From a virus: 21,429 bases of DNA. Shown here one piece after another: positions 1 through 15,631 of the stretch. Numbering within the stretch: the stretch's first letter is position 1; every line of letters begins with the position of its first letter. A program made the translations under genes and the position numbers. Where the stretch lies: IMG/VR virus record IMGVR_UViG_3300048033_000589, positions 1 through 21,429 of that record; one strand, given 5' to 3'. The notes beneath the pieces are model-generated. The model had not been told where the DNA came from. It did not search any database and saw only the letters and a program-made list of their open reading frames with translations.

Positions 1-224
1 CGGTAAACCTAGATAATCTGTTTCGGCATATGCAAAACCCAGACATCAACCCGACGGCCCGCATAGAATTCCAAAAAATGCTCAACAAGATGGGCAGGTT
101 GGAACCGGATACCAAGGCAGACACGGCAGGGGCTGGACCCCAAGTCGTAATCAACATCACTCGTGCCAAGGACGAAAGCGAAGCCATCATTATTGAAGGT
201 CAAACCATAGAAGATGGCGCATGA
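1..224 (+). CDS. Probable small terminase subunit, C-terminal part (cut by window edge)
   Basis: The reading frame is already open at the left edge (first full codon at base 3) and stops at 222-224, so this is probably the end of a longer gene. An internal ATG at 30 would give 64 residues. The visible part has a helical stretch (ARIEFQKMLNKMGRLEP), then a polar linker, then a short strand-like segment (PQVVINITRAKD) and an acidic tail. The last 11 bases overlap the start of the large terminase gene, the usual place for the small subunit, which recognises phage DNA and recruits the large subunit. No diagnostic DNA-binding motif is visible in the remaining piece, so the assignment rests mostly on position and on the similar tails of small subunits in related gene orders. 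Confidence 0.5.
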   Translation, partial: VNLDNLFRHMQNPDINPTARIEFQKMLNKMGRLEPDTKADTAGAGPQVVINITRAKDESEAIIIEGQTIEDGA

Positions 225-1629
225 GATCAATTTTGAGGTCATAGAGAGCCTCGATGAGTTCTTTTACTCTAAAAAGTTTATATCACTGGCAGTAGGACCG
301 GTCGGATCGACCAAAACGACAGCCGGTATCATGAAAATACTGCACCACGCGGCGGTTATGGCCCCGTGTAAGGACGGAATACGCCGATCTCGTGCGATTT
401 GGGTGCGAAACACGCGAGAACAGCTGCGCGATACGAGCATTCCCGACTTTTTGAAGTGGATTCCAGACGGGGTTATGGGGTATTTCCTCAAAACCGAGTA
501 CAAATTCGTCCTAAAAGTGGGCGATATTGAGTGCGAAGTGCTGTTTCGTGGCCTCGATGATGCCAATGACGTGCGTAGATTGCTCAGTTTACAGGCTAGT
601 TTCTTCATTTTTGACGAATTTAGGGAGATCCACCCCGATATTTACAACGCTGCGCAGGGTCGTGTGGGGCGTTATCCAGACAAAATGATGAACGGTGTGG
701 GGTGTCAAACCGACGATGGAGAGGCAAATATGCACCTTTGGGGCATGACGAACCCCCCTGATATGGACACTTTTTGGGAAACTCTGCTCACAGAGCCGCC
801 TGAGAACGTGCATGTAACGATACAGCCCAGCGGTCTGGCCCCAGAGGCTGACTGGACGCAGTTTTTGCCTGATGACTACTACGATAACCTTGCTCACGGT
901 AAAACTGAAGACTGGGTGGACGTGTATATACACGCACAGTTCGGTAAGTCGTTATCTGGACAACCCGTGTTTCGTTCGTTTGATCGATCTGCTCACACAG
1001 CCAAGGATGAGCTGGTGCCGATGTACACCGATAGCCCGATTATAATCGGTGTGGACGCGGGGTTAACGCCTGCGGCGGTTGTAGGGACGGTTGCGCATGA
1101 CGGTCGACTGGTCGTCTACGACAGTCTAATCTCTGACGGTATGGGGGCGCTACGCTTCGTGAGAGAGCGCCTGAAGCCCCTGTTGGCCAATAAGTACCCT
1201 GGGCGGCGTGCGGTTGTAATTATCGATCCAGCGGCGTTTCAGCGCGTTCAGACGGACGAGAGAACGGTTGCGGACATTTACAAGAATGAAGGGTTTAGTA
1301 TCCGCCCTGCCCGTACGAACTCAATCGCGGCTCGTATCGCTGCGGTCGAAACGTACCTGACACGGATCGTAGATGGAAAGTACGGGTTTGTTATATGTCC
1401 TACCCATGCAACATCTTTGGTGCAGGCACTGTCGGGTAAGTATCGGTACAAGATCAACACGAAAGGTGCGCGGGACGAGAAACCCGAGAAGTCACACCCA
1501 TGGTCGGATGTGGCTGATGCGTTTCAGTACATGTGCCTTCACGCAGACGGCGGTGAGACATTTGGAGCGTCTAGCTTAAACACCCAACGTAAAGAGGTCG
1601 TTCGCGTCTCGTCTAGCGGCTGGACGTAA
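214..1629 (+). CDS. terL: Terminase large subunit (packaging ATPase and nuclease)
   Basis: This 471-residue protein should pump phage DNA into the empty capsid and cut the concatemer. The N-terminal ATPase half has a Walker A-type loop GPVGSTKT (residues 28-35), a Walker B FFIFDE (130-135, D134 and E135) and a coupling-type motif GMTNPP (177-182). The C-terminal half looks like the RNase H-fold nuclease, with acidic residues at IIIGVDAG (D281), VVIIDPA (D338) and HPWSDVADAFQY (D432/D435). The length is normal for the family. The start at 214 overlaps the preceding gene by 11 bases, suggesting translational coupling. The next gene is the portal, the partner on which the motor docks. All key motifs are present and there is no sign of disruption. 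Confidence 0.93.
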   Translation: MAHEINFEVIESLDEFFYSKKFISLAVGPVGSTKTTAGIMKILHHAAVMAPCKDGIRRSRAIWVRNTREQLRDTSIPDFLKWIPDGVMGYFLKTEYKFVLKVGDIECEVLFRGLDDANDVRRLLSLQASFFIFDEFREIHPDIYNAAQGRVGRYPDKMMNGVGCQTDDGEANMHLWGMTNPPDMDTFWETLLTEPPENVHVTIQPSGLAPEADWTQFLPDDYYDNLAHGKTEDWVDVYIHAQFGKSLSGQPVFRSFDRSAHTAKDELVPMYTDSPIIIGVDAGLTPAAVVGTVAHDGRLVVYDSLISDGMGALRFVRERLKPLLANKYPGRRAVVIIDPAAFQRVQTDERTVADIYKNEGFSIRPARTNSIAARIAAVETYLTRIVDGKYGFVICPTHATSLVQALSGKYRYKINTKGARDEKPEKSHPWSDVADAFQYMCLHADGGETFGASSLNTQRKEVVRVSSSGWT

Positions 1630-1631
1630 TC

Positions 1632-1662
1632 TGTTGACGTGTAAACACGTTGATGCTACTGT
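1632..1662 (+). promoter_or_regulatory. Dyad element A with possible promoter, upstream of portal
   Basis: The 62-base gap between terminase and portal holds TGTTGACGTGTAAACA at 1632-1647, a copy of a 16-bp imperfect palindrome (TGTTNAC, two bases, GTNAACA) found at three other gene junctions in this window. Its left arm contains TTGACG at 1634-1639, close to a sigma70 -35. TACTGT lies 17 bp further on, at 1657-1662, and is only a weak -10 match. The repetition is seen directly. Whether it is a promoter, an operator or both is inference. Confidence 0.55.
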
Positions 1663-1691
1663 ACGCATGACGTCACAGGTGAGATTTTGAT

Positions 1692-3728
1692 ATGGCGCTA
1701 GGCCCAGCTCTAATTCCTGTTGCGCGTGCTTCTGATCTTGAGGCGCAAGCGCAGCGTGCTTCTGATGAGAAACAGAACACCCCTATGATTCAAGGGCTGT
1801 CTTCTCACGTTTATAAGCGATGGGAAGTAATGCGGGATCATCACCAGGACAGCTTAGAAGAGCGTCTTGCGCAGTGCGTTCGCGCTCGGAATATGGAGTA
1901 TGAACCTGCAAAACTTGCTGAAATACAGGAGCAAGGTGGCTCAGAAATCTTTATGGGTATTGTCAGCGCTAAGTGTAGGACTGCTACTGCTTGGCTGCGA
2001 GATACGCTTTTAGGGACTGGCACAGATAAACCTTGGTCTCTTAGTGCGACGCCTATTCCAGAGGTGCCGCCAGACATAGCTCAGGCGATGCAGAATATAA
2101 TGCAGCAGAACCTGATGCAATATTACGACGCTGGCGGCGAACCGCCAAACGAAGCTGAGCTTAAACAGCTTGCGTCGGGTATGAAGGATACGGCCATGCG
2201 GGCCATGAAGTTCGAAGCGGAGAAGCGCGTCGAGCGGATGGAAACCAAAATGGAAGATCAGATGATCGAGGGGGGCTTTACGAAAGCGCTGTTCGAGTTC
2301 ACAAACGATATAGCGACCTTTCCTTACGCGATCCTAAAAGGACCAATTCCCCGCAAACGTAAAGCAATGAAGTACGTTGAGGGCGGATTAGGCGTAGTCG
2401 AGGTACTGCGCGACGAGTGGGAGCGCGTTGACCCGTTTAAGTTTTACTGGATGCCATGGGGCGATGATATCCACTCTATGCCTATAGCAGAACTGCATCA
2501 CTTAACGCGAGACGACGTTGAGAACATGCTCGGCGTTGAGGGCTACGACGAAGACGCTGTGCGCTCAATACTTACCGATTTCGGTTCGGGCGGGTTTAGC
2601 TGGCTCGACCACAACGATGACCTCATGGAAGACGCCACAGGGCAAGACTTTGATGAGGCGAACACAGATTTAGTCGCAGCGTTACAGCTTTGGGACACAA
2701 TCCCCGGCGATGTTTTACTAGAATGGGGGCTTAGCGAGGAAGAGGTCGAAGACCCTCAAAAATCGTATCCGTGTGAAGTGTGGATGATTGACAACATTGT
2801 CGTTCGCGCGGTGCTTAACTATGATCCATTGGGGCGTAAGCCTTACTATATGTCTTCTTTTGAAAAGGTTCCGGGCCGTATCGACGGCAACGGGGTCGCC
2901 GATCTTTGTATGGACGCTCAAAATATGTGTAACGCCGCTGCTCGGGCGCTTGCAAATAATATGGGCATCTCCTCCGGTCCACAGGTCGGCGTTAATATCA
3001 GTCGACTTCCAGCGGGCGAAGACATCACTCAGATGTACCCGTGGAAAATTTGGCAGTTCAAACAGTCCGATTACGCAGACTCAACACCGCCTATGAGCTT
3101 TTTTCAGCCGAACTCTAACGCAGCTGAACTGATGGGCGTATTTGATCGCTTTATGGCTATCTCCGACGAGGTGTCAGGTATTCCGCGTTACATGACCGGC
3201 CAGCATGTTCCAGGCGCAGGGCGTACGTCCTCGGGGCTGTCTATGCTTATGTCAAACGCCGGTAAAAGCATAAAACAAGTTATTAGCAATATTGACCATG
3301 ACGTGATGCAGCCAATGCTGGAGCGCCAGTATCAAAGAAACTTAAGGTACTCAGATGACCCAGACCTTATCGGCGATGTCCAGATTGTGGCAACGGGCGC
3401 TATGTCGCTTGTCGTTAAAGAAGCTGAAGCTGTCCGTAAGACTGACTTCCTCCGTCTTATTCTGGAAAGTCCGGTTGCACAGCAGATTGTTGGCTTGCCA
3501 GGTACGGCTGAACTCCTCCGCGACCTCGCGGGCAATCTTAACACCAATGTTGACCGCCTTGTCCCTAGCCGAGAAGATGTTCAGAAGCAGCAAGAGTTAG
3601 CTCAGCAACAGCAAATGATGATGCAGCAAATGCAGGCTCAGGAGCAAGCAGCACAGCTGCAAGAAGACGGCACGCCAAAAGGTGGGCGACAAGACAATAC
3701 AATGAGTCCCCGTCCTAATGGGCAGTAA
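1692..3728 (+). CDS. Portal protein (head-tail connector)
   Basis: This 678-residue protein is of the size and type that form the dodecameric DNA gate at one capsid vertex, through which the terminase packs and the tail ejects the genome. The best sign is the conserved segment GRTSSGLSMLMSNAGKSIK (starting near residue 510), a form widespread in portals of podoviruses, preceded by a stretch ending SDEVSGIPRYMTGQ. The N-terminal half has long charged helices (about 130-200) and many acidic patches. The last 60 residues are rich in glutamine and methionine (about 620-655), a flexible or coiled-coil tail typical of portals. The ribosome site is a modest AGGTGAG before ATG 1692. It lies between terminase and scaffold, as expected. 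Confidence 0.9.
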   Translation: MALGPALIPVARASDLEAQAQRASDEKQNTPMIQGLSSHVYKRWEVMRDHHQDSLEERLAQCVRARNMEYEPAKLAEIQEQGGSEIFMGIVSAKCRTATAWLRDTLLGTGTDKPWSLSATPIPEVPPDIAQAMQNIMQQNLMQYYDAGGEPPNEAELKQLASGMKDTAMRAMKFEAEKRVERMETKMEDQMIEGGFTKALFEFTNDIATFPYAILKGPIPRKRKAMKYVEGGLGVVEVLRDEWERVDPFKFYWMPWGDDIHSMPIAELHHLTRDDVENMLGVEGYDEDAVRSILTDFGSGGFSWLDHNDDLMEDATGQDFDEANTDLVAALQLWDTIPGDVLLEWGLSEEEVEDPQKSYPCEVWMIDNIVVRAVLNYDPLGRKPYYMSSFEKVPGRIDGNGVADLCMDAQNMCNAAARALANNMGISSGPQVGVNISRLPAGEDITQMYPWKIWQFKQSDYADSTPPMSFFQPNSNAAELMGVFDRFMAISDEVSGIPRYMTGQHVPGAGRTSSGLSMLMSNAGKSIKQVISNIDHDVMQPMLERQYQRNLRYSDDPDLIGDVQIVATGAMSLVVKEAEAVRKTDFLRLILESPVAQQIVGLPGTAELLRDLAGNLNTNVDRLVPSREDVQKQQELAQQQQMMMQQMQAQEQAAQLQEDGTPKGGRQDNTMSPRPNGQ

Positions 3729-3738
3729 AAGCTACATG

Positions 3739-3769
3739 TGTTGACACGTTAACAGCTTTAGAGTAGATT
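3739..3769 (+). promoter_or_regulatory. Dyad element B with the best -35/-10 pair
   Basis: TGTTGACACGTTAACA (3739-3754) is the most symmetrical of the four dyad copies: TGTTGAC and GTTAACA around the centre AC. It includes a perfect sigma70 -35, TTGACA (3741-3746). After a 17-bp spacer comes TAGATT (3764-3769), a four-of-six match to TATAAT. It sits in the 47-base gap between the portal and the 77-residue gene. A transcript from here would cover scaffold and capsid. Confidence 0.6.
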
Positions 3770-3775
3770 TATGAC

Positions 3776-4009
3776 ATGATTGACTTGAATCTTTGTGATC
3801 AGCAGCACGTAAAAGCACTGTTGAGACTTAAAGAAACAGGTGAAACGTCGCTGTTAGGTCTTTTTAAGGCCGAAGCAGAGAAAGCCAAAGCTCGTCTAGT
3901 GAGCGCAACCGATATGGTTTCAGTCCACCGGTTGCAAGGACGTGCAGAAGCATTTGAAGACCTACTGGAGTCCGTTGAAGAAGCGGCGAAGGTAGTAAAC
4001 CGCTCGTAA
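3776..4009 (+). CDS. Small helical protein between portal and scaffold, function unknown
   Basis: This 77-residue acidic protein appears to be almost entirely alpha-helical: a short N-terminal part (MIDLNLCDQQHVKALLRL), then two long helices rich in Ala, Glu and Lys that could pair as a hairpin (FKAEAEKAKARLVSATDM and VHRLQGRAEAFEDLLESVEEA). Small helical proteins of this kind often lie between portal and scaffold in podovirus-like genomes. I know no proven role, but the position suggests a capsid-assembly or minor virion component. Its start lies directly downstream of dyad element B, and no strong ribosome-binding site is visible ahead of the ATG. No catalytic motif is seen. Confidence 0.8.
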   Translation: MIDLNLCDQQHVKALLRLKETGETSLLGLFKAEAEKAKARLVSATDMVSVHRLQGRAEAFEDLLESVEEAAKVVNRS

Positions 4010-4016
4010 GAGCACG

Positions 4017-4064
4017 ATGAAGCACACCATATACGGGAGCAGCCTACCTACGGGCGCTGTGTAA
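4017..4064 (+). other. Possible 15-codon mini-ORF in the 82-base gap before scaffold
   Basis: The gap 4010-4091 has no dyad element. It holds an ATG at 4017 opening a 15-residue frame (MKHTIYGSSLPTGAV) that stops at 4064, shortly before the scaffold ribosome site GAGGAGAA. The sequence AAGCAC near 4020 and GTGCTT near 4074 could also pair and bracket the mini-ORF. It may be a leader peptide, a relic or chance. Only conservation in relatives could decide. Confidence 0.2.
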
Positions 4065-4091
4065 CAGAGTTGGTGCTTTGAGGAGAACCAT

Positions 4092-5048
4092 ATGGCGTTG
4101 CCAAAGCAGGTACAGGCACAGATTGCCGAAATTGAAGCGTACGAAAAATCGTTAGAAGCCCAACACGAACCTCAACCCGAGGAGTTGGATACGGAAGCGG
4201 AAGTAGTAGCGACGATCGAAGCAGCACCCGAACCTGAAGAAGCGAAGCCAGCTGACACGTCACCGACGGACGTAGAGGAAGAGACTTTTAAGCAAAAGTA
4301 CAAAACCCTTACAGGTAAGTACGATGCTGAAGTTCCACGGTTGCACCAACAGGTGCGAGAGATGACCGAGGCAACAAAGCAGCTCCAAGAGGAGCTAAAA
4401 GCGCTTAAAGTCGAACCGACAAAGCCGAAGGAGAAAGTCAGTTTAGTGACCGACGCAGATCGAGCCGAATTTGGTGAAGAACTGCTGGACGTTCAGCGCC
4501 GAGTTGCGCAGGAAGTCTCTCAAGACTACGAGGGGCGACTGGAGCAGCAAGACGCGGTTATCAAGAAGTTGCAGGACGAACTTGCAAAGACGGGTAGCCA
4601 AGTTGGAGAAGTAGGATTTAGTCAGAGGCTCAACCAAGCCGTGCCTGATTTCCCGCAGATCGACAACGATGAGCGTTGGGTAGCGTGGTTAAATGAGCAT
4701 GATCCTATGCTTAGAGGCCCACGCAGAGTTCAAGCACAGCAGGCGTTTGATGCCGGTGACGTAGAAGCCATAGCCCACTATGTGAACATGTGGAAAGAAA
4801 CGTTAGCAGCACCGACCGAAGCTAAGCCTAACCAAGCCGAACTTGAGAAGCAGGTTGCTCCAAACCGTTCTGCTAATTCTGTGCGTACACAGAGTACAAC
4901 CCAGAACTCTAAAATTTATTCGCCTAAAGACGCGGATAGAGCTTGGAATAAGGTCCGTACACTGAATACGCGAGGGCAGTACGCGGAGGCGGAAAAACTT
5001 GAAGCTGACTTAACCGCTGCGTATATGGAAGGCCGCGTTAGAGCTTAG
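4092..5048 (+). CDS. Scaffold protein for capsid assembly
   Basis: This 318-residue, highly charged protein has no hydrophobic core sequence, as is typical of phage scaffolds, which line the procapsid interior and are lost or cleaved before DNA fills the head. The first 70 residues are strongly acidic and rich in Glu and Pro. Residues about 75-185 form a likely coiled coil (KYKTLTGKYDAEVPRLHQQV onward, then EGRLEQQDAVIKKLQDELAK). A middle part (VPDFPQIDNDERWVAWLNEH) is better ordered. The C-terminus is a basic helical segment (DADRAWNKVRTLNTRGQYAE) of the kind that binds coat protein. Position between portal and major capsid gene supports the role. The start follows a good GAGGAGAACC site. 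Dyad element C separates it from the capsid gene. Confidence 0.82.
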   Translation: MALPKQVQAQIAEIEAYEKSLEAQHEPQPEELDTEAEVVATIEAAPEPEEAKPADTSPTDVEEETFKQKYKTLTGKYDAEVPRLHQQVREMTEATKQLQEELKALKVEPTKPKEKVSLVTDADRAEFGEELLDVQRRVAQEVSQDYEGRLEQQDAVIKKLQDELAKTGSQVGEVGFSQRLNQAVPDFPQIDNDERWVAWLNEHDPMLRGPRRVQAQQAFDAGDVEAIAHYVNMWKETLAAPTEAKPNQAELEKQVAPNRSANSVRTQSTTQNSKIYSPKDADRAWNKVRTLNTRGQYAEAEKLEADLTAAYMEGRVRA

Positions 5049-5056
5049 GCATAACG

Positions 5057-5087
5057 TGTTAACATGTAAGCAGCTATTAGGTCGATA
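5057..5087 (+). promoter_or_regulatory. Dyad element C upstream of major capsid gene
   Basis: TGTTAACATGTAAGCA at 5057-5072 is a third copy of the 16-bp dyad, with one base off the symmetrical consensus (AGCA for AACA). Downstream bases resemble those after copy B: 10 of the next 15 match, including a GT-C/A-GAT group near 5081-5086. The -35-like hexamer is TTAACA and the 17-bp-spaced -10 (TCGATA) is poor, so sigma70 use is uncertain. It lies 38 bases before the capsid ATG. Confidence 0.5.
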
Positions 5088-5109
5088 ACCAACTTAATAG
5101 GAGGCCAAA

Positions 5110-6120
5110 ATGGCTGCTGTATTCCCCGTCGTCGGTTCCGGCGCATTCGACACAAACCCATCTTACTCAGGTGGATTCATCCCACAACTATGGTCGCAAA
5201 AATTGAACGCTAAGTTCTATGCGAACACAATGATGACTGAAATTTCCAATACTGATTGGGAAGGCGAGATCAAAAACCAAGGCGATACAATTCGTATCCG
5301 TACTGCACCATCAATCACAATCAACGATTATGCTGGCGCTGGTACTACACTGACTTCTGAAGTCCCTGCTCCAATCTACCAAGACATGCAGATCGACCAA
5401 GGTAAATACTTCAGTGTTCAAGTAAACGATGTACTCGCACACCAAGCGGACATGGACTTGATGAACATGTTCACTGATGATGCTGCTAAACAGCTGAAGA
5501 TCAACATTGAAAACGATACGTTCTTCAACTGGTTCGTAACCACAGGCGCACACGCTAAAAACAAAGGTGCAAATGCTGGTAACATCTCAAGCGCTTATAA
5601 CTTGGGTACTGACGTAGCCCCAATCGACCAAGCAACTCCTGCGAACATTTTGAACGCAATCTTGCAAATGTCTTCATCTCTCGATGAGCAAAACGTACCG
5701 GAAGATGGCCGCTGGCTTATCATTTCACCGCGTGATCGTCAGTTGTTGATGCAAACAGACATTGCTCAAGCCTACTTCACAGGCGATCAGTCAAGCACCA
5801 TCCGTACCGGCAAAATCGGTATGTTGGACCGCTTCACTGTGTACGTGTCCAACTTGTTGCCAAAAGGCCAAGCAGGCAAAGGTCTTGTTGCGGGTCTATC
5901 AGCCACAACATCAGGCGCTTCAGTGTCTAACGCTAAAGCACGTCGTATGATGGTAGCTGGTACAAGCACAGCTTGTTCGTTTGCTTCGCAAATCAGCAAA
6001 ACTGAGCCACTTCGCAACCAGACTGACTTCGGCGACATCGTTCGCGGTCTTGCAGTATATGGTCGCAAAGTTGTTAAGCCAGAAGCTCTCTGCACCGCGA
6101 TTGTTGGAGCAGCCAGCTAA
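5110..6120 (+). CDS. Major capsid protein
   Basis: This 336-residue protein is the expected shell subunit, directly after the scaffold. Its N-terminus (SYSGGFIPQLWSQKLNAKFY), followed by EGEIKNQGDTIRIRTAPSIT and DQGKYFSVQVNDV, matches a coat family common in podovirus-like marine phages. An HK97-type fold is assumed from the family, not shown here. The ribosome site is the strongest in the window (AGGAGG at 5099-5104, five bases before the ATG), as expected for the most abundant protein. Codon use looks more uniform, with many AAC, GGT and CGT codons. Its own dyad element lies upstream and a GC-rich hairpin lies downstream, so it may be produced from a defined transcript. No cleavage signal for a maturation protease is obvious. 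Confidence 0.9.
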   Translation: MAAVFPVVGSGAFDTNPSYSGGFIPQLWSQKLNAKFYANTMMTEISNTDWEGEIKNQGDTIRIRTAPSITINDYAGAGTTLTSEVPAPIYQDMQIDQGKYFSVQVNDVLAHQADMDLMNMFTDDAAKQLKINIENDTFFNWFVTTGAHAKNKGANAGNISSAYNLGTDVAPIDQATPANILNAILQMSSSLDEQNVPEDGRWLIISPRDRQLLMQTDIAQAYFTGDQSSTIRTGKIGMLDRFTVYVSNLLPKGQAGKGLVAGLSATTSGASVSNAKARRMMVAGTSTACSFASQISKTEPLRNQTDFGDIVRGLAVYGRKVVKPEALCTAIVGAAS

Positions 6121-6133
6121 AAGCTGACTTAAC

Positions 6134-6155
6134 GGGAGGGGCTAACGTCCCTCCC
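6134..6155 (+). terminator. GC-rich hairpin after the capsid gene, probable terminator
   Basis: GGGAGGG (6134-6140) and CCCTCCC (6149-6155) form a perfect 7-bp stem with an 8-base loop, 13 bases after the capsid stop codon. The following bases are CCTTACTTG, not a long T tract, so termination is likely partial. T7-like phages have a terminator in the equivalent place after the capsid gene. It could instead protect the capsid mRNA from 3' decay. Confidence 0.55.
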
Positions 6156-6178
6156 CCTTACTTGCGAAGGGGCAGATT

Positions 6179-6868
6179 ATGGCAACTGTAAAAGTTACCG
6201 ATATTATTAGAAACGTAGAACATGTTCTACAAGACACCAGCATTCGTTGGCCACGCACGGAACTCCAGAACTGGATGAACGAAGCGTATCTAGCGATTAT
6301 TCTTATGCGCCCTGACGCAAATGCTAAAACAGGCACATTCACTTGCACAGCAGGTTCTCGACAGCAGCTGACCTCTCAGTTCGCCTCTAGTTTGAAACTT
6401 TTAGATGTTACGCGCAACTTAGCATCGGCTTCGGACAAGCGAGCCGTACGGCTTGTAGCCCGGTCTGTATTGGACGATCAACGCCCTACATGGCACGGCG
6501 AAACTGGTACGGTAAACATACAACACTACATGTATGATCCGCGCCAACCCAAAGAATTTTTTGTGTACCCACCCGCTACAACAGCAGCAGAAATTGAAGT
6601 AATTTACGCTGACGCTGTTACCGGACACGCACTCAGCGAAAGCGCTTTGGACCCGACTGGTTCTAACGCGACTGTAATTTTGCTGGACGATATTTATAAA
6701 AGTCCAATTACCGACTGGGTGCTATATCGTGCGTATTCAAAAGACGCAGAGTACGGATCAAACGAACAAAGAGCCGTAGGAGCGTACAACGCTTTCAATA
6801 CCGCTCTTGGGGCTAAAACTCAGGTAGACGCAGCTGTGTCTCCTCAGCAAGCTAGTTCGGTGACATAA
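6179..6868 (+). CDS. Head-tail adaptor protein, DUF6682-like
   Basis: This 229-residue protein begins with a helical segment typical of phage adaptor proteins that sit under the portal: VTDIIRNVEHVLQDTSIRWP then ELQNWMNEAYLAIILMRPDA. The DT..RWP..EL..W.N.A pattern is the hallmark I associate with the DUF6682 adaptor family. A beta-rich middle follows (RQPKEFFVYPPATTAAEIEV), then a helical C-terminal part (SPITDWVLYRAYSKDAEYGS) that also recurs in these proteins. It should join portal to tail and help hold DNA in the filled head. It starts after the capsid hairpin with only a weak GGGGCAG ribosome site and is one base from the next gene. Confidence 0.8.
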   Translation: MATVKVTDIIRNVEHVLQDTSIRWPRTELQNWMNEAYLAIILMRPDANAKTGTFTCTAGSRQQLTSQFASSLKLLDVTRNLASASDKRAVRLVARSVLDDQRPTWHGETGTVNIQHYMYDPRQPKEFFVYPPATTAAEIEVIYADAVTGHALSESALDPTGSNATVILLDDIYKSPITDWVLYRAYSKDAEYGSNEQRAVGAYNAFNTALGAKTQVDAAVSPQQASSVT

Positions 6869-6869
6869 C

Positions 6870-7508
6870 ATGGCAAAAACGTGGGCGAGCTTTCTTCCGT
6901 ATGTGCAGCCACACGTTCCCGGCTGTCCACAGGTTGTAATTGACACACATCTGCAAGAAGCGGCGGCTGAGTTTATTGGCCGCAGTGAACTTTGGCGTTT
7001 TGACATTGAATCAGATTTTACGAGTAAAAATACATCTGACTATGAAATTGACGTTCCTAGCGGAGCGGTTTTAGAGAATGTTTTATCGTTATTTGTTGAC
7101 GGTTCAGCTGCAAAACGCGTTACCGACAGGCATTTTCAGTCCTCAAATACGACTGAAAATTCTGCGCCTTCCTCGTTTAGTATATACCAAGACAACCAAA
7201 TACGGTTTTTCCCAACGCCAGACCGAAAGTATACGTTCGAGGGTGTGGGAGTTTTAAAGCCGTCTTTAAGTGCTACAGGCGTAGAAGACTTTATATTCGA
7301 AACGCACGGGCGCTCTATCGCGTGCGGGGCCATTTGGCGACTAGCAATTATCCCGGGCAAAGAATGGTCGAACCCCGAGGTGGCGATGTACTATAAAACC
7401 GAGTTCTACAAGCACATGGACGCCGCTAAAGGGCGAGACACGCGGCGCGTTAATTTGCGCATTGCTCCTGTTGGCTTTGACCGAGCTACAGCTGGCGGAG
7501 GAAGATAA
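6870..7508 (+). CDS. Second head-tail adaptor / tail tube-like connector protein
   Basis: This 212-residue protein has the layout of tail-tubular A or second adaptor proteins in short-tailed phages. It has an N-terminal helical region (WASFLPYVQPHVPGCPQVVI, then LQEAAAEFIGRSELWRFDIE), a central beta-rich part (SIYQDNQIRFFPTPDRKYTF) and a final helical part (SNPEVAMYYKTEFYKHMDAA) ending in RRVNLRIAPVGFDR. The early helical segment recalls proteins that start with an array of helices contacting the portal. It follows the DUF6682-like adaptor by one base and overlaps the next gene by one base, so the block is probably translated as a unit. Exact orthology to T7 gp11 or P22 gp4 cannot be judged by eye. 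Confidence 0.7.
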   Translation: MAKTWASFLPYVQPHVPGCPQVVIDTHLQEAAAEFIGRSELWRFDIESDFTSKNTSDYEIDVPSGAVLENVLSLFVDGSAAKRVTDRHFQSSNTTENSAPSSFSIYQDNQIRFFPTPDRKYTFEGVGVLKPSLSATGVEDFIFETHGRSIACGAIWRLAIIPGKEWSNPEVAMYYKTEFYKHMDAAKGRDTRRVNLRIAPVGFDRATAGGGR

Positions 7509-7843
7509 TGGCTACAACCTTTAAATACGTGCAAGGCGATACGGGTCCACAAATCAAAGTAGCCCTTACAGAAGAAGATACTGGGGGTGCGGTTGATCTA
7601 ACAGGCGGCACAGCCACACTGCACTTCAGAGCCGCAGGCGAAGAAACTGTATTGTTTAGTCGCGGATTGTTTATCAACCCGGAAACGGCGTCTGACGGCG
7701 TTGCCATCCTGCAATGGCAAGCGAACGACTTAAACCAAGACGCTGGTGCCTATGAGGGCGAGATCGAAGTGGTTCGCAGCACAGGTTTGCGCGAGACACT
7801 GTACGACAAATTAAAATTTAAGATTAGGGAAGACTTCGCATGA
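7508..7843 (+). CDS. Small BppU N-terminal-like beta protein, virion appendage
   Basis: This 111-residue protein resembles the N-terminal immunoglobulin-like domain of the lactococcal phage baseplate protein BppU. It opens with KYVQGDTGPQIKVALTEEDT, followed by VDLTGGTATLHFRAAGEETV, and a later AYEGEIEVVRSTGLRETL and DKLKFKIRED. The pattern 'V..GD..P.i...L.d...G...DLtGat....' is typical of this fold, which often stands alone as a short gene next to fibre genes. It probably forms an attachment or spacer part of the appendages. The ATG shares an A with the preceding TAA (TAATG), with AGGAAG upstream. The end overlaps the next gene by four bases (ATGA). Confidence 0.65.
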   Translation: MATTFKYVQGDTGPQIKVALTEEDTGGAVDLTGGTATLHFRAAGEETVLFSRGLFINPETASDGVAILQWQANDLNQDAGAYEGEIEVVRSTGLRETLYDKLKFKIREDFA

Positions 7844-9129
7844 AGCTAAAGTCCGCAACATTTGTAGCACAAACGAAAGCTGTTTTCACGCAGCTAAGTA
7901 GTGCTGCCAGCGTTACGACTTTAAATCGTATTCTTGCATCCGTGCAGGCAGGCAACTTTATACTTTTCGCTTCGTTGTTCGATACGTTCTATATCAAAGA
8001 CGGAGCCGGTGCTTCCGATGGTGCGGTTCTTGAGTTCTTCAAAACACTCACCGACGACGCTGCCGTTGCGGAAGAAGCGACTAATTCGTTTATGAAGTCG
8101 CTGTCGCACACTGCGACCTTTGATGATAGAATTGATTTCTTTGCTTTTGGCAAATCTTTTCAGAACACTTCCGCCGTAGCCGAGGCGTATGCGGCGCACA
8201 TACAAAAACCCTTCAGCGATGGATTTTCGGTTGCAGAAGACGCAGCGAGCTTGCACCCCAACAAGGGTCTATTTGAGGCTCCAGCCGCAGCCGATGCGAT
8301 AAACACGTTCGGCGTGGGTAAAGCCAACACAGATGTATTTACTGCGCTAGACGCCCATGCTTTTTCTTCGGCTAAACCATTAAACAATTCGTCATCCGCA
8401 GCAGACGCGACGTCGAAAGAGCCGGGTAAAGTTCTAAACGACATCGTTACTAAGTTTGACGATCAAACAATTCTGTTTACCATGAAAGCGCCTGACAACC
8501 CTGTTGGGGCTGTGGATGGGGTAAACACAAAAGGCATTGGTAAATCTGAGGAAGACACTGCGGTTTCTTTAGACCAAGCGACACGTAGTTTTAACAAAGA
8601 TGCCCAAGATATTTTTGCGGCGATTGACGAGATAAACTCGTTTTCCACGAGCAAACAGATCGTCGATTCCATTTTTGTTACTGACGATGTGGATGGAGCC
8701 GCGTCGATTTTAGACGACCAAGAAATGCAATTTGTCAAACTGCACACTGATGTGGTCGGTGTCGGCGATTCTATCCAAATTGGAATTGTGTTCACCCGTC
8801 AGTTTATCGACACGGGAGTTGCGCTAGACAGCGTTGCGTTCGCGATAGCGAAAGCTCTGTCCGATGGTTATACAATTTCTGACGTCGCAAATGTGCTGAC
8901 AGGTAAGCACGTTTCTGATACATTCGCGTTAAGCGAAACTCATACGAAAGCCGTAACTGCGGCCCGTACAGACAGCGCCCTTTTAGGAGACGCACACGCC
9001 TCAGCACTGTCAAAGGTGTTGTCTGATACCCCGCTAATAGCCGACGCGGGTTCACTAAGAAGTCAAGGTTACTGCGACTTCACTTACTTTGCGGAAGATT
9101 ATGTCGGTGCTTCCCGAACCTTTACTTAG
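7840..9129 (+). CDS. Repeat-built structural protein, 18-19-residue K..(L/F).D repeats
   Basis: This 429-residue, alanine- and aspartate-rich protein is unusual in composition and made largely of short repeats. From residue 68 to about 405, most segments begin with Lys and run 18-19 residues in the pattern K-x-(L/F)-x-D-x-x-x-(V/A)-x-(D/E)-x-(A/V). Examples are KTLTDDAAVAEEATNSFM, KPFSDGFSVAEDAASLHPN, KALSDGYTISDVANVLTG and KVLSDTPLIADAG. The N-terminal 67 residues differ and include a hydrophobic stretch (LASVQAGNFILFASLFDTFY). The last 25 residues (YCDFTYFAEDYVGASRTF) end in an aromatic cap. Similar repeats occur in other phage virion proteins, and a trimeric fibre or elongated stalk is the likely shape, though the fold is unproven. 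It sits among appendage genes and is translationally coupled to the BppU-like gene. Confidence 0.75.
   Translation: MKLKSATFVAQTKAVFTQLSSAASVTTLNRILASVQAGNFILFASLFDTFYIKDGAGASDGAVLEFFKTLTDDAAVAEEATNSFMKSLSHTATFDDRIDFFAFGKSFQNTSAVAEAYAAHIQKPFSDGFSVAEDAASLHPNKGLFEAPAAADAINTFGVGKANTDVFTALDAHAFSSAKPLNNSSSAADATSKEPGKVLNDIVTKFDDQTILFTMKAPDNPVGAVDGVNTKGIGKSEEDTAVSLDQATRSFNKDAQDIFAAIDEINSFSTSKQIVDSIFVTDDVDGAASILDDQEMQFVKLHTDVVGVGDSIQIGIVFTRQFIDTGVALDSVAFAIAKALSDGYTISDVANVLTGKHVSDTFALSETHTKAVTAARTDSALLGDAHASALSKVLSDTPLIADAGSLRSQGYCDFTYFAEDYVGASRTFT
8041..9054 (+). repeat. About 17 degenerate 54-57-bp coding repeats
   Basis: The repeats are visible at protein level as segments that mostly begin with Lys at an 18-19-residue spacing. 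They have diverged strongly at DNA level, so they are old. Three units are longer (about 28, 38 and 36 residues) and seem to have lost the leading Lys of an internal unit. Confidence 0.7.
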
Positions 9130-14480: not shown

Positions 14481-14650
14481 GACTTGTACAGGTAAGACGC
14501 GAACGCTGGGTGGTCTACGACGAGAACGACAAAGTCGTAATCATAACGCACCACAGAAGGATCGCATCAGATTATATGAGGAGTATGCTAAATGGCAGAC
14601 AAACCAATAAGGAAGACGACAGGCAAGGGCGGAAACTACCGCAAGACTAA
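14477..14650 (+). CDS. Overlooked 57-aa protein with GTG start
   Basis: A GTG at 14477 forms a GTGA overlap with the stop of the previous gene and opens a 57-codon frame ending at TAA 14648-14650. The first two thirds read as a proper small beta/alpha domain: RLVQVRRERWVVYDENDKV, then VIITHHRRIASDYMRSML. Strand, acidic turn, strand and helix with alternating hydrophobic residues suggest real coding. The basic, polar tail runs 59 bases into the next gene. A competing frame from ATG 14461 (starting MRLRMGETCTG) lacks such a pattern. The gene fills the otherwise unexplained gap before 14592. The function is unknown. It is short and has a non-ATG start, which makes it easy to miss. Confidence 0.65.
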   Translation: MRLVQVRRERWVVYDENDKVVIITHHRRIASDYMRSMLNGRQTNKEDDRQGRKLPQD

Positions 14651-14876
14651 GTCTGGCGCTGGCATGACAGCCAAGGGAGTTGCTGCGCACCGACGTGCTA
14701 ACCCCGGTTCTAAACTAAAAACTGCCGTAACCGGCAAAGTCAAAAAGGGCAGCAAGGACGCCAAGCGACGTAAGTCGTTCTGCGCACGTTCGGCTGGTCA
14801 GATGAAGAAGTTTCCTAAAGCTGCGAAAGACCCGAACTCTCGTCTGCGTCAAGCTAGAAAAAGGTGGAAGTGCTAA
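14592..14876 (+). CDS. Very basic DUF6321-like protein
   Basis: This 94-residue protein has about 31 Lys/Arg and only three acidic residues (net charge near +28). The pattern GVAAHRRANPGSKLKTAVTG, then AKRRKSFCARSAGQMKKF and a C-terminal DPNSRLRQARKRWKC matches what I know as DUF6321, a small domain of marine phages and some large viruses with no proven function. The RRKSFCARS and R.W.C parts each hold one conserved Cys (two in all), so a metal site shared between subunits is possible. The charge suggests nucleic-acid binding, but that is inference. The start follows GAGGAG eight bases upstream. The stop shares an A with the next start (TAATG). First of four consecutive tiny basic proteins. 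Confidence 0.8.
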   Translation: MADKPIRKTTGKGGNYRKTKSGAGMTAKGVAAHRRANPGSKLKTAVTGKVKKGSKDAKRRKSFCARSAGQMKKFPKAAKDPNSRLRQARKRWKC

Positions 14877-15070
14877 TGGCAAATGCAAAACCAAACAATC
14901 CAGCTTTGTGGTCGCGGGCTAAGGCAGCGGCAAAGAAAAAGTTTAAAGTTTATCCGAGTGCATATGCTAACGCGTGGGCAAGTAAGTGGTATAAATCTAA
15001 AGGCGGCGGCTGGAGCGGCGGCAATAATAAGGTAGCTAAACGTGGCAAAAGCAAAAGCAAAAAAGCCTAG
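14876..15070 (+). CDS. Very basic 64-aa protein with YPSAYANAW motif
   Basis: The start chosen is ATG 14876, which overlaps the previous stop (TAATG) and has AAGGTGG at 14861-14867. An in-frame ATG at 14864 would add MEVL only. The 64-residue product has 17 Lys/Arg and no acidic residue. Its centre, KKFKVYPSAYANAWASKWYK, followed by a GGGWSGG turn, is a motif I have seen in small proteins of phages and large viruses, whose role is unknown to me. The C-terminal KRGKSKSKKA is pure basic tail and is encoded in the same DNA as the start of the next protein. DNA or RNA binding is a guess from charge. Confidence 0.75.
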   Translation: MANAKPNNPALWSRAKAAAKKKFKVYPSAYANAWASKWYKSKGGGWSGGNNKVAKRGKSKSKKA

Positions 15071-15293
15071 TGCCAAGGGTGGCTTGGGTAAATGGTTCGG
15101 GGAAGAGTGGACTGACGTCAAGACAGGTAAAGCCTGTGGACGCAAATCGGCTAAAGGTAAATCCAAGAGGCCGTATCCCGCTTGTCGCCCTAAAAAAGTT
15201 GCGTCGAAGATTTCTAAATCGGAGGCAGCAAAGAAGACCGGTTCTAAGCGAGTGAAGTGGTCCACAACAGCCAGCGGAAAGAAAAGGAAATAA
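15042..15293 (+). CDS. Very basic 83-aa protein with GKWFGEEW and YPACRP motifs
   Basis: The gene starts with GTG 15042, after AAGGTAG, inside the end of the previous gene (29-base overlap). The 83-residue product has about 28 Lys/Arg and four acidic residues. The motif run GGLGKWFGEEWTDVKTGKACG then RPYPACRPKKVASK is distinctive. It resembles a family of tiny Lys-rich proteins with a W-F-x-E-x-W block and paired Cys found in marine phages and large viruses, but I do not trust a family number. The two Cys (ACG, PAC) could bind metal. Tail: WSTTASGKKRK. Role unknown. It is the third in the basic-protein run and ends two bases before the next ATG. Confidence 0.75.
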   Translation: MAKAKAKKPSAKGGLGKWFGEEWTDVKTGKACGRKSAKGKSKRPYPACRPKKVASKISKSEAAKKTGSKRVKWSTTASGKKRK

Positions 15294-15294
15294 C

Positions 15295-15414
15295 ATGGCC
15301 TATGGAAAAACAATGAAGAAGTCCGGTAGAAAAATGCCGTTTAAAAACTGTGCGTCCTGCAAATCAAAAGCCGCCTGCAAGAAAATGGGCCGCTGTATGA
15401 AAAAGAAGAAGTGA
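15295..15414 (+). CDS. Overlooked 39-aa Lys- and Cys-rich protein
   Basis: ATG 15295 opens a 39-codon frame ending TGA 15412-15414, exactly filling the 121-base gap between its neighbours, with one base on each side. The product has 15 Lys/Arg, no acidic residue and four Cys spaced C-x2-C-x5-C-x5-C (core CASCKSKAACKKMGRC), which could form a small zinc-binding or disulfide knot. GAAAAGGAAATAAC upstream is an acceptable ribosome site. The exact fit to the gap, the fourth place in a run of basic proteins and the patterned Cys make it likely real. The function is unknown. Confidence 0.7.
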   Translation: MAYGKTMKKSGRKMPFKNCASCKSKAACKKMGRCMKKKK

Positions 15415-15415
15415 C

Positions 15416-15631
15416 ATGGCGCACACCGTTATTGATGATTGGAAGATTATTCCACGACTGATGATGCTTGCGGTGACGGTGCTTACCTATCAGGCTGTGC
15501 ATTGGTTCATGGGTCTTGACGATCCTTCGATTGCTCAGTCTGGCCTTGTCAGCGTATGTATGGGCGCTCTTACAGGGTGTTTTGGCATCTGGATGGGCAA
15601 GGAATCAACTGCGAGTGGAAAGTCCGTATAA
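15416..15631 (+). CDS. Two-transmembrane small membrane protein, holin-like
   Basis: This 71-residue protein has two hydrophobic segments: residues 15-34 (LMMLAVTVLTYQAVHWFMGL) and 42-61 (SGLVSVCMGALTGCFGIWMG), separated by a short acidic turn (DDPSIAQ) and ended by a polar tail. Small two-TM proteins of this kind are usually listed as holins or membrane proteins of unknown role in phages. Here another, better holin candidate follows, so this could be its antagonist, a pinholin or an independent inner-membrane protein. It starts one base after the 39-aa gene. Dyad element D follows at once, so it probably ends a transcription unit that starts far upstream. Confidence 0.68.
   Translation: MAHTVIDDWKIIPRLMMLAVTVLTYQAVHWFMGLDDPSIAQSGLVSVCMGALTGCFGIWMGKESTASGKSV

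Follow-up and report, generated by a model that had tools for sequence, protein, structure and literature searches.

A cassette of small, highly basic proteins in a phage genome and its probable role inside the virus head

Introduction

Phage T4 packs its head with hundreds of copies of basic internal proteins that bind DNA under low-salt conditions; some of them are ejected and are active in the host (PMC9026906). T4 IPII and IPIII begin with MKTYQEFIAE↓A, where the arrow marks the boundary after the glutamate. The T4 prohead protease gp21 recognizes L/I-x-E, and in phiKZ and SPN3US a gp21-like protease cuts inner-body and ejection proteins after Glu; several of these proteins are associated with DNA (PMC9026906).

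Two protein families without an assigned function, DUF6321 and DUF5872, are common across marine viruses. DUF5872 is listed in the algal virus CpV-BQ1 (PMC12085832). A search of the open-access literature found no mention of DUF6321 and found DUF5872 in one paper, without a function. In the same open-access literature, "capsid targeting sequence" and "cyanophage" are mentioned together only in a T4 review. Here we examine a cassette of four genes that brings members of both families together. It lies in a 21,429-nucleotide stretch of viral DNA (IMG/VR record IMGVR_UViG_3300048033_000589, positions 1 to 21,429), which is referred to as the window. We propose that three of its products, with the fourth as an optional partner, are probably small basic internal-head proteins that work like the T4 internal proteins.

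Organization of the Cassette

All four genes are on the plus strand. P1 (14592..14876) encodes 94 amino acids with a KSFCARS motif and a C-terminal RWKC; it has 31 Lys/Arg, 3 Asp/Glu and a pI of 11.8. P2 (14876..15070) encodes 64 amino acids with the motif YPSAYANAW, 17 Lys/Arg, no acidic residue and a pI of 10.9. P3 (15042..15293) starts with GTG and encodes 83 amino acids with GKWFGEEW, CG and YPACRP motifs, 28 Lys/Arg, 4 Asp/Glu and a pI of 10.8. P4 (15295..15414) encodes 39 amino acids with 15 Lys/Arg, no acidic residue and a pI of 10.4. Its four cysteines are spaced C-x2-C-x5-C-x5-C, a pattern that may bind metal. The preliminary description had reported four tiny, highly basic and overlapping or touching reading frames, and their positions, lengths and charges all hold. 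Among the products of the 49 plus-strand ATG reading frames of at least 35 amino acids, P4, P1 and P2 carry the highest positive charge; P3 stands outside this list owing to its GTG start.

The genes are tightly joined. P1 and P2 overlap in TAATG, P3 starts 29 nt within P2, P4 starts 1 nt past the P3 stop and the next reading frame begins at 15416. P3 lies in the +1 frame relative to P2, and a programmed frameshift from P2 into P3 was considered and rejected. P3 can start at a GTG of its own, which AAGG precedes by about 9 nt, and therefore translational restart is the simpler explanation. A scan for promoters and terminators returned sites no more frequent than expected by chance.

Family Membership and Selective Constraint

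P1 is a DUF6321 protein (PF19846), with a score of 45.8 bits against a Pfam gathering cut-off of 28.5. P2 and P3 correspond to the N-terminal and C-terminal halves of DUF5872 (PF19197), a model of 116 positions of which each covers about half. P2 aligns to positions 1-42 with 21.6 bits, under the cut-off of 27.5, and P3 aligns to positions 45-105 with 26.1 bits, slightly under it. Both halves are thus present, and in the order of the family. Relatives of P3 and one fused relative exceed the DUF5872 cut-off (53.3 bits for the P3-type sequence of phage P-SCSP2 and 51.9 bits for locus L159), and in loci L142 and L165 the P2-type and P3-type sequences are contained in a single reading frame. P4 had no match in the family searches. 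The four motifs had been thought to be four different ones; two of them turn out to be halves of DUF5872 and one is DUF6321, so that only the four-Cys protein stays without a family. The P1, P2 and P3 types are called modules A, B and C below.

Codon comparisons reveal strong purifying selection, so P1, P2 and P3 are real genes and not chance reading frames. Between P1 and its relative in L166 there are 20 synonymous changes and no non-synonymous ones, and the comparison with the relative in L168 gives a dN of 0.02 and a dS of 1.2. P3 compared with its relative in L167 has a dN of 0.02 and a dS of 1.5, and P2 compared with its relatives has a dN of 0.06-0.11 and a dS of 0.4-1.6. The codon evidence for P4 is weaker, with only two relatives compared, and P4-type reading frames recur behind P3-type genes. 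Invariant residues are G24, S62, R66, G69 and W92 in the P1 family, PSAY in the P2 family, and W18, W23, C32 and C48 in the P3 family.

AlphaFold models, made from alignments that left out rows from annotated records, are of low confidence. The P1 model has a mean pLDDT of 68 with a helical C-terminal half, and the P3 model has a mean pLDDT of 58. A Foldseek search of the PDB with the P1 model matched nothing, and PDB sequence searches with P1 and P3 gave zero matches.

Genomic Setting and Occurrence in Other Small Phages

The cassette is flanked upstream by a homolog of gp44 of Roseobacter phage CRP-901 (14477..14650, plus strand), whose end overlaps P1. This overlapping end is probably not conserved; in L166 the homolog of the upstream gene ends immediately 5' of P1. 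The downstream neighbor (15416..15631, plus strand) is a homolog of CRP-901 gp43, which is annotated as a TMhelix protein, and belongs to phrog_10198. Compared with CRP-901, the stretch between about 14592 and 15414 is a unit that has been inserted (or lost), because in that phage gp44 and gp43 adjoin and the cassette is absent between them. Genes for capsid, portal-type and large terminase proteins lie upstream of the cassette in the window, and genes for a TM-type protein, a phrog_2524 protein and a phrog_181 endolysin lie downstream. No prohead protease was found among the window proteins searched, and the sequences of P1 to P4 carry no T4-type capsid-targeting peptide. The lysis-side region of the window is similar to Roseobacter phages CRP-901 and CRP-902, and positions 1-8000 had no DNA match in isolated phage records at distant sensitivity. 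Either the head-gene half of the window is without a close cultured relative or the genome is a mosaic.

The same modules occur in other small phages, where the stand-alone forms sit among late structural genes. In P-SCSP2 they stand alone between the scaffold and capsid genes, in P-SCSP1a they lie between capsid and gp11, directly after the capsid gene, and in HTVC023P they lie 3' of the capsid gene. In CRP-2 they lie 5' of the terminase, and in the pelagiphages HTVC203P and HTVC010P they lie near or downstream of an M15 peptidase. A term search of the cryo-EM paper on P-SCSP1u found no mention of small internal proteins.

These positions bear on the suggestion that the products are cationic peptides that disturb the host membrane alongside the nearby lysis genes. 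The window, in which TM-protein genes and the endolysin follow the cassette, would suit such lysis helpers, as would the pelagiphage cassettes downstream of the M15 peptidase. Elsewhere the genes are flanked by those for scaffold and capsid or precede the terminase gene, and the T4-like relatives described below carry head-type signals, which makes a role in lysis very improbable. The preliminary description had offered lysis or the anionic membrane as one option; its one support is the lysis genes nearby in the window, and it is not borne out among the capsid, scaffold and terminase genes of other phages.

The modules are numerous and keep company. Scans of viral contigs confirmed at least 599, at least 547 and at least 568 relatives from 600 candidates per query, and a single DUF6321 query matched 546 phage records. 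Pairing was counted in loci flanked by at least 1.5 kb on both sides and drawn from the nearest 80 per query, a set that was not randomly sampled. Among the matches listed from marine viral contigs, module C was found near B in 56/56 loci and B near C in 51/51; A lay close to B in 15/56 and to C in 19/51, and B lay close to A in 29/41. The most frequent gene orders among these matches are B-C, A-B-C and B-C-A. A four-Cys gene with the P4 spacing directly follows module C in 10/192 of the P3-type loci listed. The preliminary description had made the recurrence of all four genes as a neighborhood a test of its proposal: P1 to P3 do co-occur in relatives, while the four-Cys gene accompanies them in a small minority. 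A profile of module B searched against 84,980 cellular genomes matched 34 contigs only, nearly all of them from marine metagenome-assembled or single-cell genomes, a rarity that fits a viral family.

Many B-C loci also encode a further small basic protein with the pattern FxARHxC...YWxC (L090-L100, L202, L213, L227-L229 and CRP-2 L242:1832-2116). Two T4-like reading frames contain it joined to B and C, and the version in CRP-2 gives a weak match to phrog_220, "minor head protein and DNA pilot".

Fused Modules and Cleavage-Type Motifs in T4-Like Cyanophages

T4-like loci often join the modules in long single reading frames. Among the matches listed, there are 32 fusions of the order CBA, 30 CB, 23 CA and 10 CAB. 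An example is SSM1_115 of phage S-SM1, a reading frame with C, B and A modules located between the terminase genes. A hydrophobic-x-E motif directly precedes the modules in 29/34 (A), 36/38 (B) and 23/28 (C) non-redundant junctions, compared with 9.1, 17.8 and 9.1 expected when residues are shuffled within the junction. In 71% of cases a hydrophobic residue stands two positions before the glutamate closest to the module, versus 32% for other linker glutamates (Fisher 6e-17), and the residue after this closest glutamate is mostly G, D, A, K or S. Counted along entire proteins, the motif reaches 2.0 times expectation in a set of 36 non-redundant precursors, compared with 1.02 in 197 control reading frames of the same loci. 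The precursors are enriched in the reversed motif as well (1.41, compared with 0.96 in the controls), and therefore part of the motif signal is local clustering. The predicted cuts fall within a few residues of the starts of stand-alone B and C, with a larger offset for A. A comparison by eye with the T4 capsid protein (FLTE↓A) points to ILTE↓T and ILTE↓A as the presumed cleavage sites of the cyanophage capsid proteins.

The long module proteins (L045, L036, L282, L308 and other T4-like loci) carry additional recurring modules, CWxGY...NCV, CxxGxYYC, QQRFFGMVR and RDEYGDPxGGPKIS, which are often set apart by acidic linkers and may be further head cargo.

An alternative is that the products are helpers in building the head. 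Such helpers would be minor scaffold or decoration partners without a role on DNA and would mostly be lost after prohead assembly, much as T4 core proteins are cut small and most of the fragments exit the head (PMC9026906). The genes of P-SCSP2, between scaffold and capsid, and of P-SCSP1a, right after the capsid gene, are placed as such helpers might be. Within the precursors, however, it is the modules that are strongly conserved and basic, and the remainder is nearly neutral; the lack of the cassette in CRP-901 would also be odd for an assembly factor. We regard assembly helpers as improbable.

Targeting Peptides and Detection in Virions

Some T4-like relatives of P1 begin like T4 internal proteins. 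S-CREM1_179 (91 aa) starts with MKTYNDFITE, after which DUF6321 follows immediately, and S-SZBM1_192 starts with MKTFKQYITE↓A... and contains DUF6321. The proteins of L348, L350, L353, L354 and L358 start with MK(T/N/D)YF(D/N)F(I/L)KE↓S... and have DUF6321 at the end. The longer S-SZBM1_194, from the same region as S-SZBM1_192, has an internal TYREFIAE↓G. Among the matches listed, targeting-type N-termini number 31 in T4-like loci, 1 in other loci and 0 after shuffling.

Two related proteins without the modules, S-SZBM1_191 (L408:27312-27629) and S-CREM1_177 (L447:1370-1699), are encoded between terminase genes and have the T4-type targeting N-termini MKSFKSFLSES and MKSYKQFLSES, suggesting that there is more undescribed cyanophage head cargo. 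S-SZBM1_190, a virion protein whose gene also lies between terminase genes, was checked and is not a module protein. S-SZBM1_139 (L410:989-2362), a virion-detected protein of 457 aa whose gene adjoins that for the cytidylyltransferase, has both a CWKGY...PDC module and a stretch rich in Ala and Lys that resembles a histone tail.

Lys/Arg-rich proteins are poorly seen after trypsin digestion. The absence of S-SZBM1_192 and S-SZBM1_194 from the list of 30 virion proteins of S-SZBM1 (PMC9146016) is therefore weak negative evidence. S-CREM2 gp137 (108049-109521) has DUF6321 at its end (tblastn 109288-109518) and was found in virions purified on CsCl, where 4 unique peptides covered 4.1% of it, the peptide positions not being given (PMC10665884, Table 3). 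The authors of that proteome caution that some proteins may be carry-over (PMC10665884).

The extreme positive charge and the conserved Cys pairs would also suit late nucleic-acid binders that are never packaged and whose targets, during infection, are the DNA or RNA of the host or of the replicating phage. The T4-like versions bear head-targeting-type N-termini and prohead-protease-type sites, and one DUF6321 protein, S-CREM2 gp137, was found in virions. Both findings argue against non-packaged binders, which we consider unlikely.

Proposed Role Inside the Head

As a whole, the functional interpretation in the preliminary description is partly supported. Of its options, the one that placed the proteins in the virion interior, on packaged DNA, is favored by the targeting N-termini and cut-site motifs of the T4-like relatives and by the S-CREM2 gp137 peptides. 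The charge of the modules suggests contact with packaged DNA. P1 to P3 would be loaded into the head with the DNA, neutralizing or condensing it, and might enter the host together with it, as T4 internal proteins do. T4-like cyanophages would make these domains with a capsid-targeting peptide or within long precursors, and the prohead protease would cut the precursors at hydrophobic-x-E, freeing the modules. The phage of the window, the pelagiphages and the cyanopodoviruses would encode the mature form directly, in the late region. We infer from sequence the cleavage itself, the location in the head, the contact with DNA and the whole reading for the window's own phage.

A broader idea is possible, and we put it forward tentatively. 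Marine tailed phages of unrelated lineages may draw on a common kit of mini-proteins, interchangeable and protamine-like, which accompany the packaged DNA. T4-like phages would make them as protease-released strings, and small phages and algal giant viruses (with a fused DUF5872) would make them as finished pieces, so that the toolkit would cross virus realms.

If the internal-head reading is true, two unexplained families of marine virus proteins gain a testable job. Many "hypothetical proteins" of cyanophages would turn out to be head precursors that are processed at predictable sites, and what lies beside the DNA in very common ocean phages could be tested by virion proteomics.

Comparison With Known Systems

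P1 belongs to DUF6321 above the curated cut-off. It is free-standing at 94 aa, whereas in cyanophages the domain often makes up the C-terminal end of a long protein. DUF5872 is here split into two overlapping genes, each just under the family cut-off. The phiKZ and SPN3US systems belong to giant phages, their sequences are different, and the available sections of PMC9026906 do not describe a multi-module precursor for them. P1 to P4 are not classed as T4-type internal proteins, because their sequences were checked for the targeting peptide and lack it; gp21 was likewise not found among the window proteins searched, and no likeness between the window proteins and the mature parts of T4 internal proteins was noticed, as judged without a similarity search. 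What P1 to P4 do share with T4 IPI, IPII and IPIII is that they are small and basic, and the T4-like relatives of P1 have in common with the T4 internal proteins both the capsid-targeting type of N-terminus and the L/I-x-E motif.
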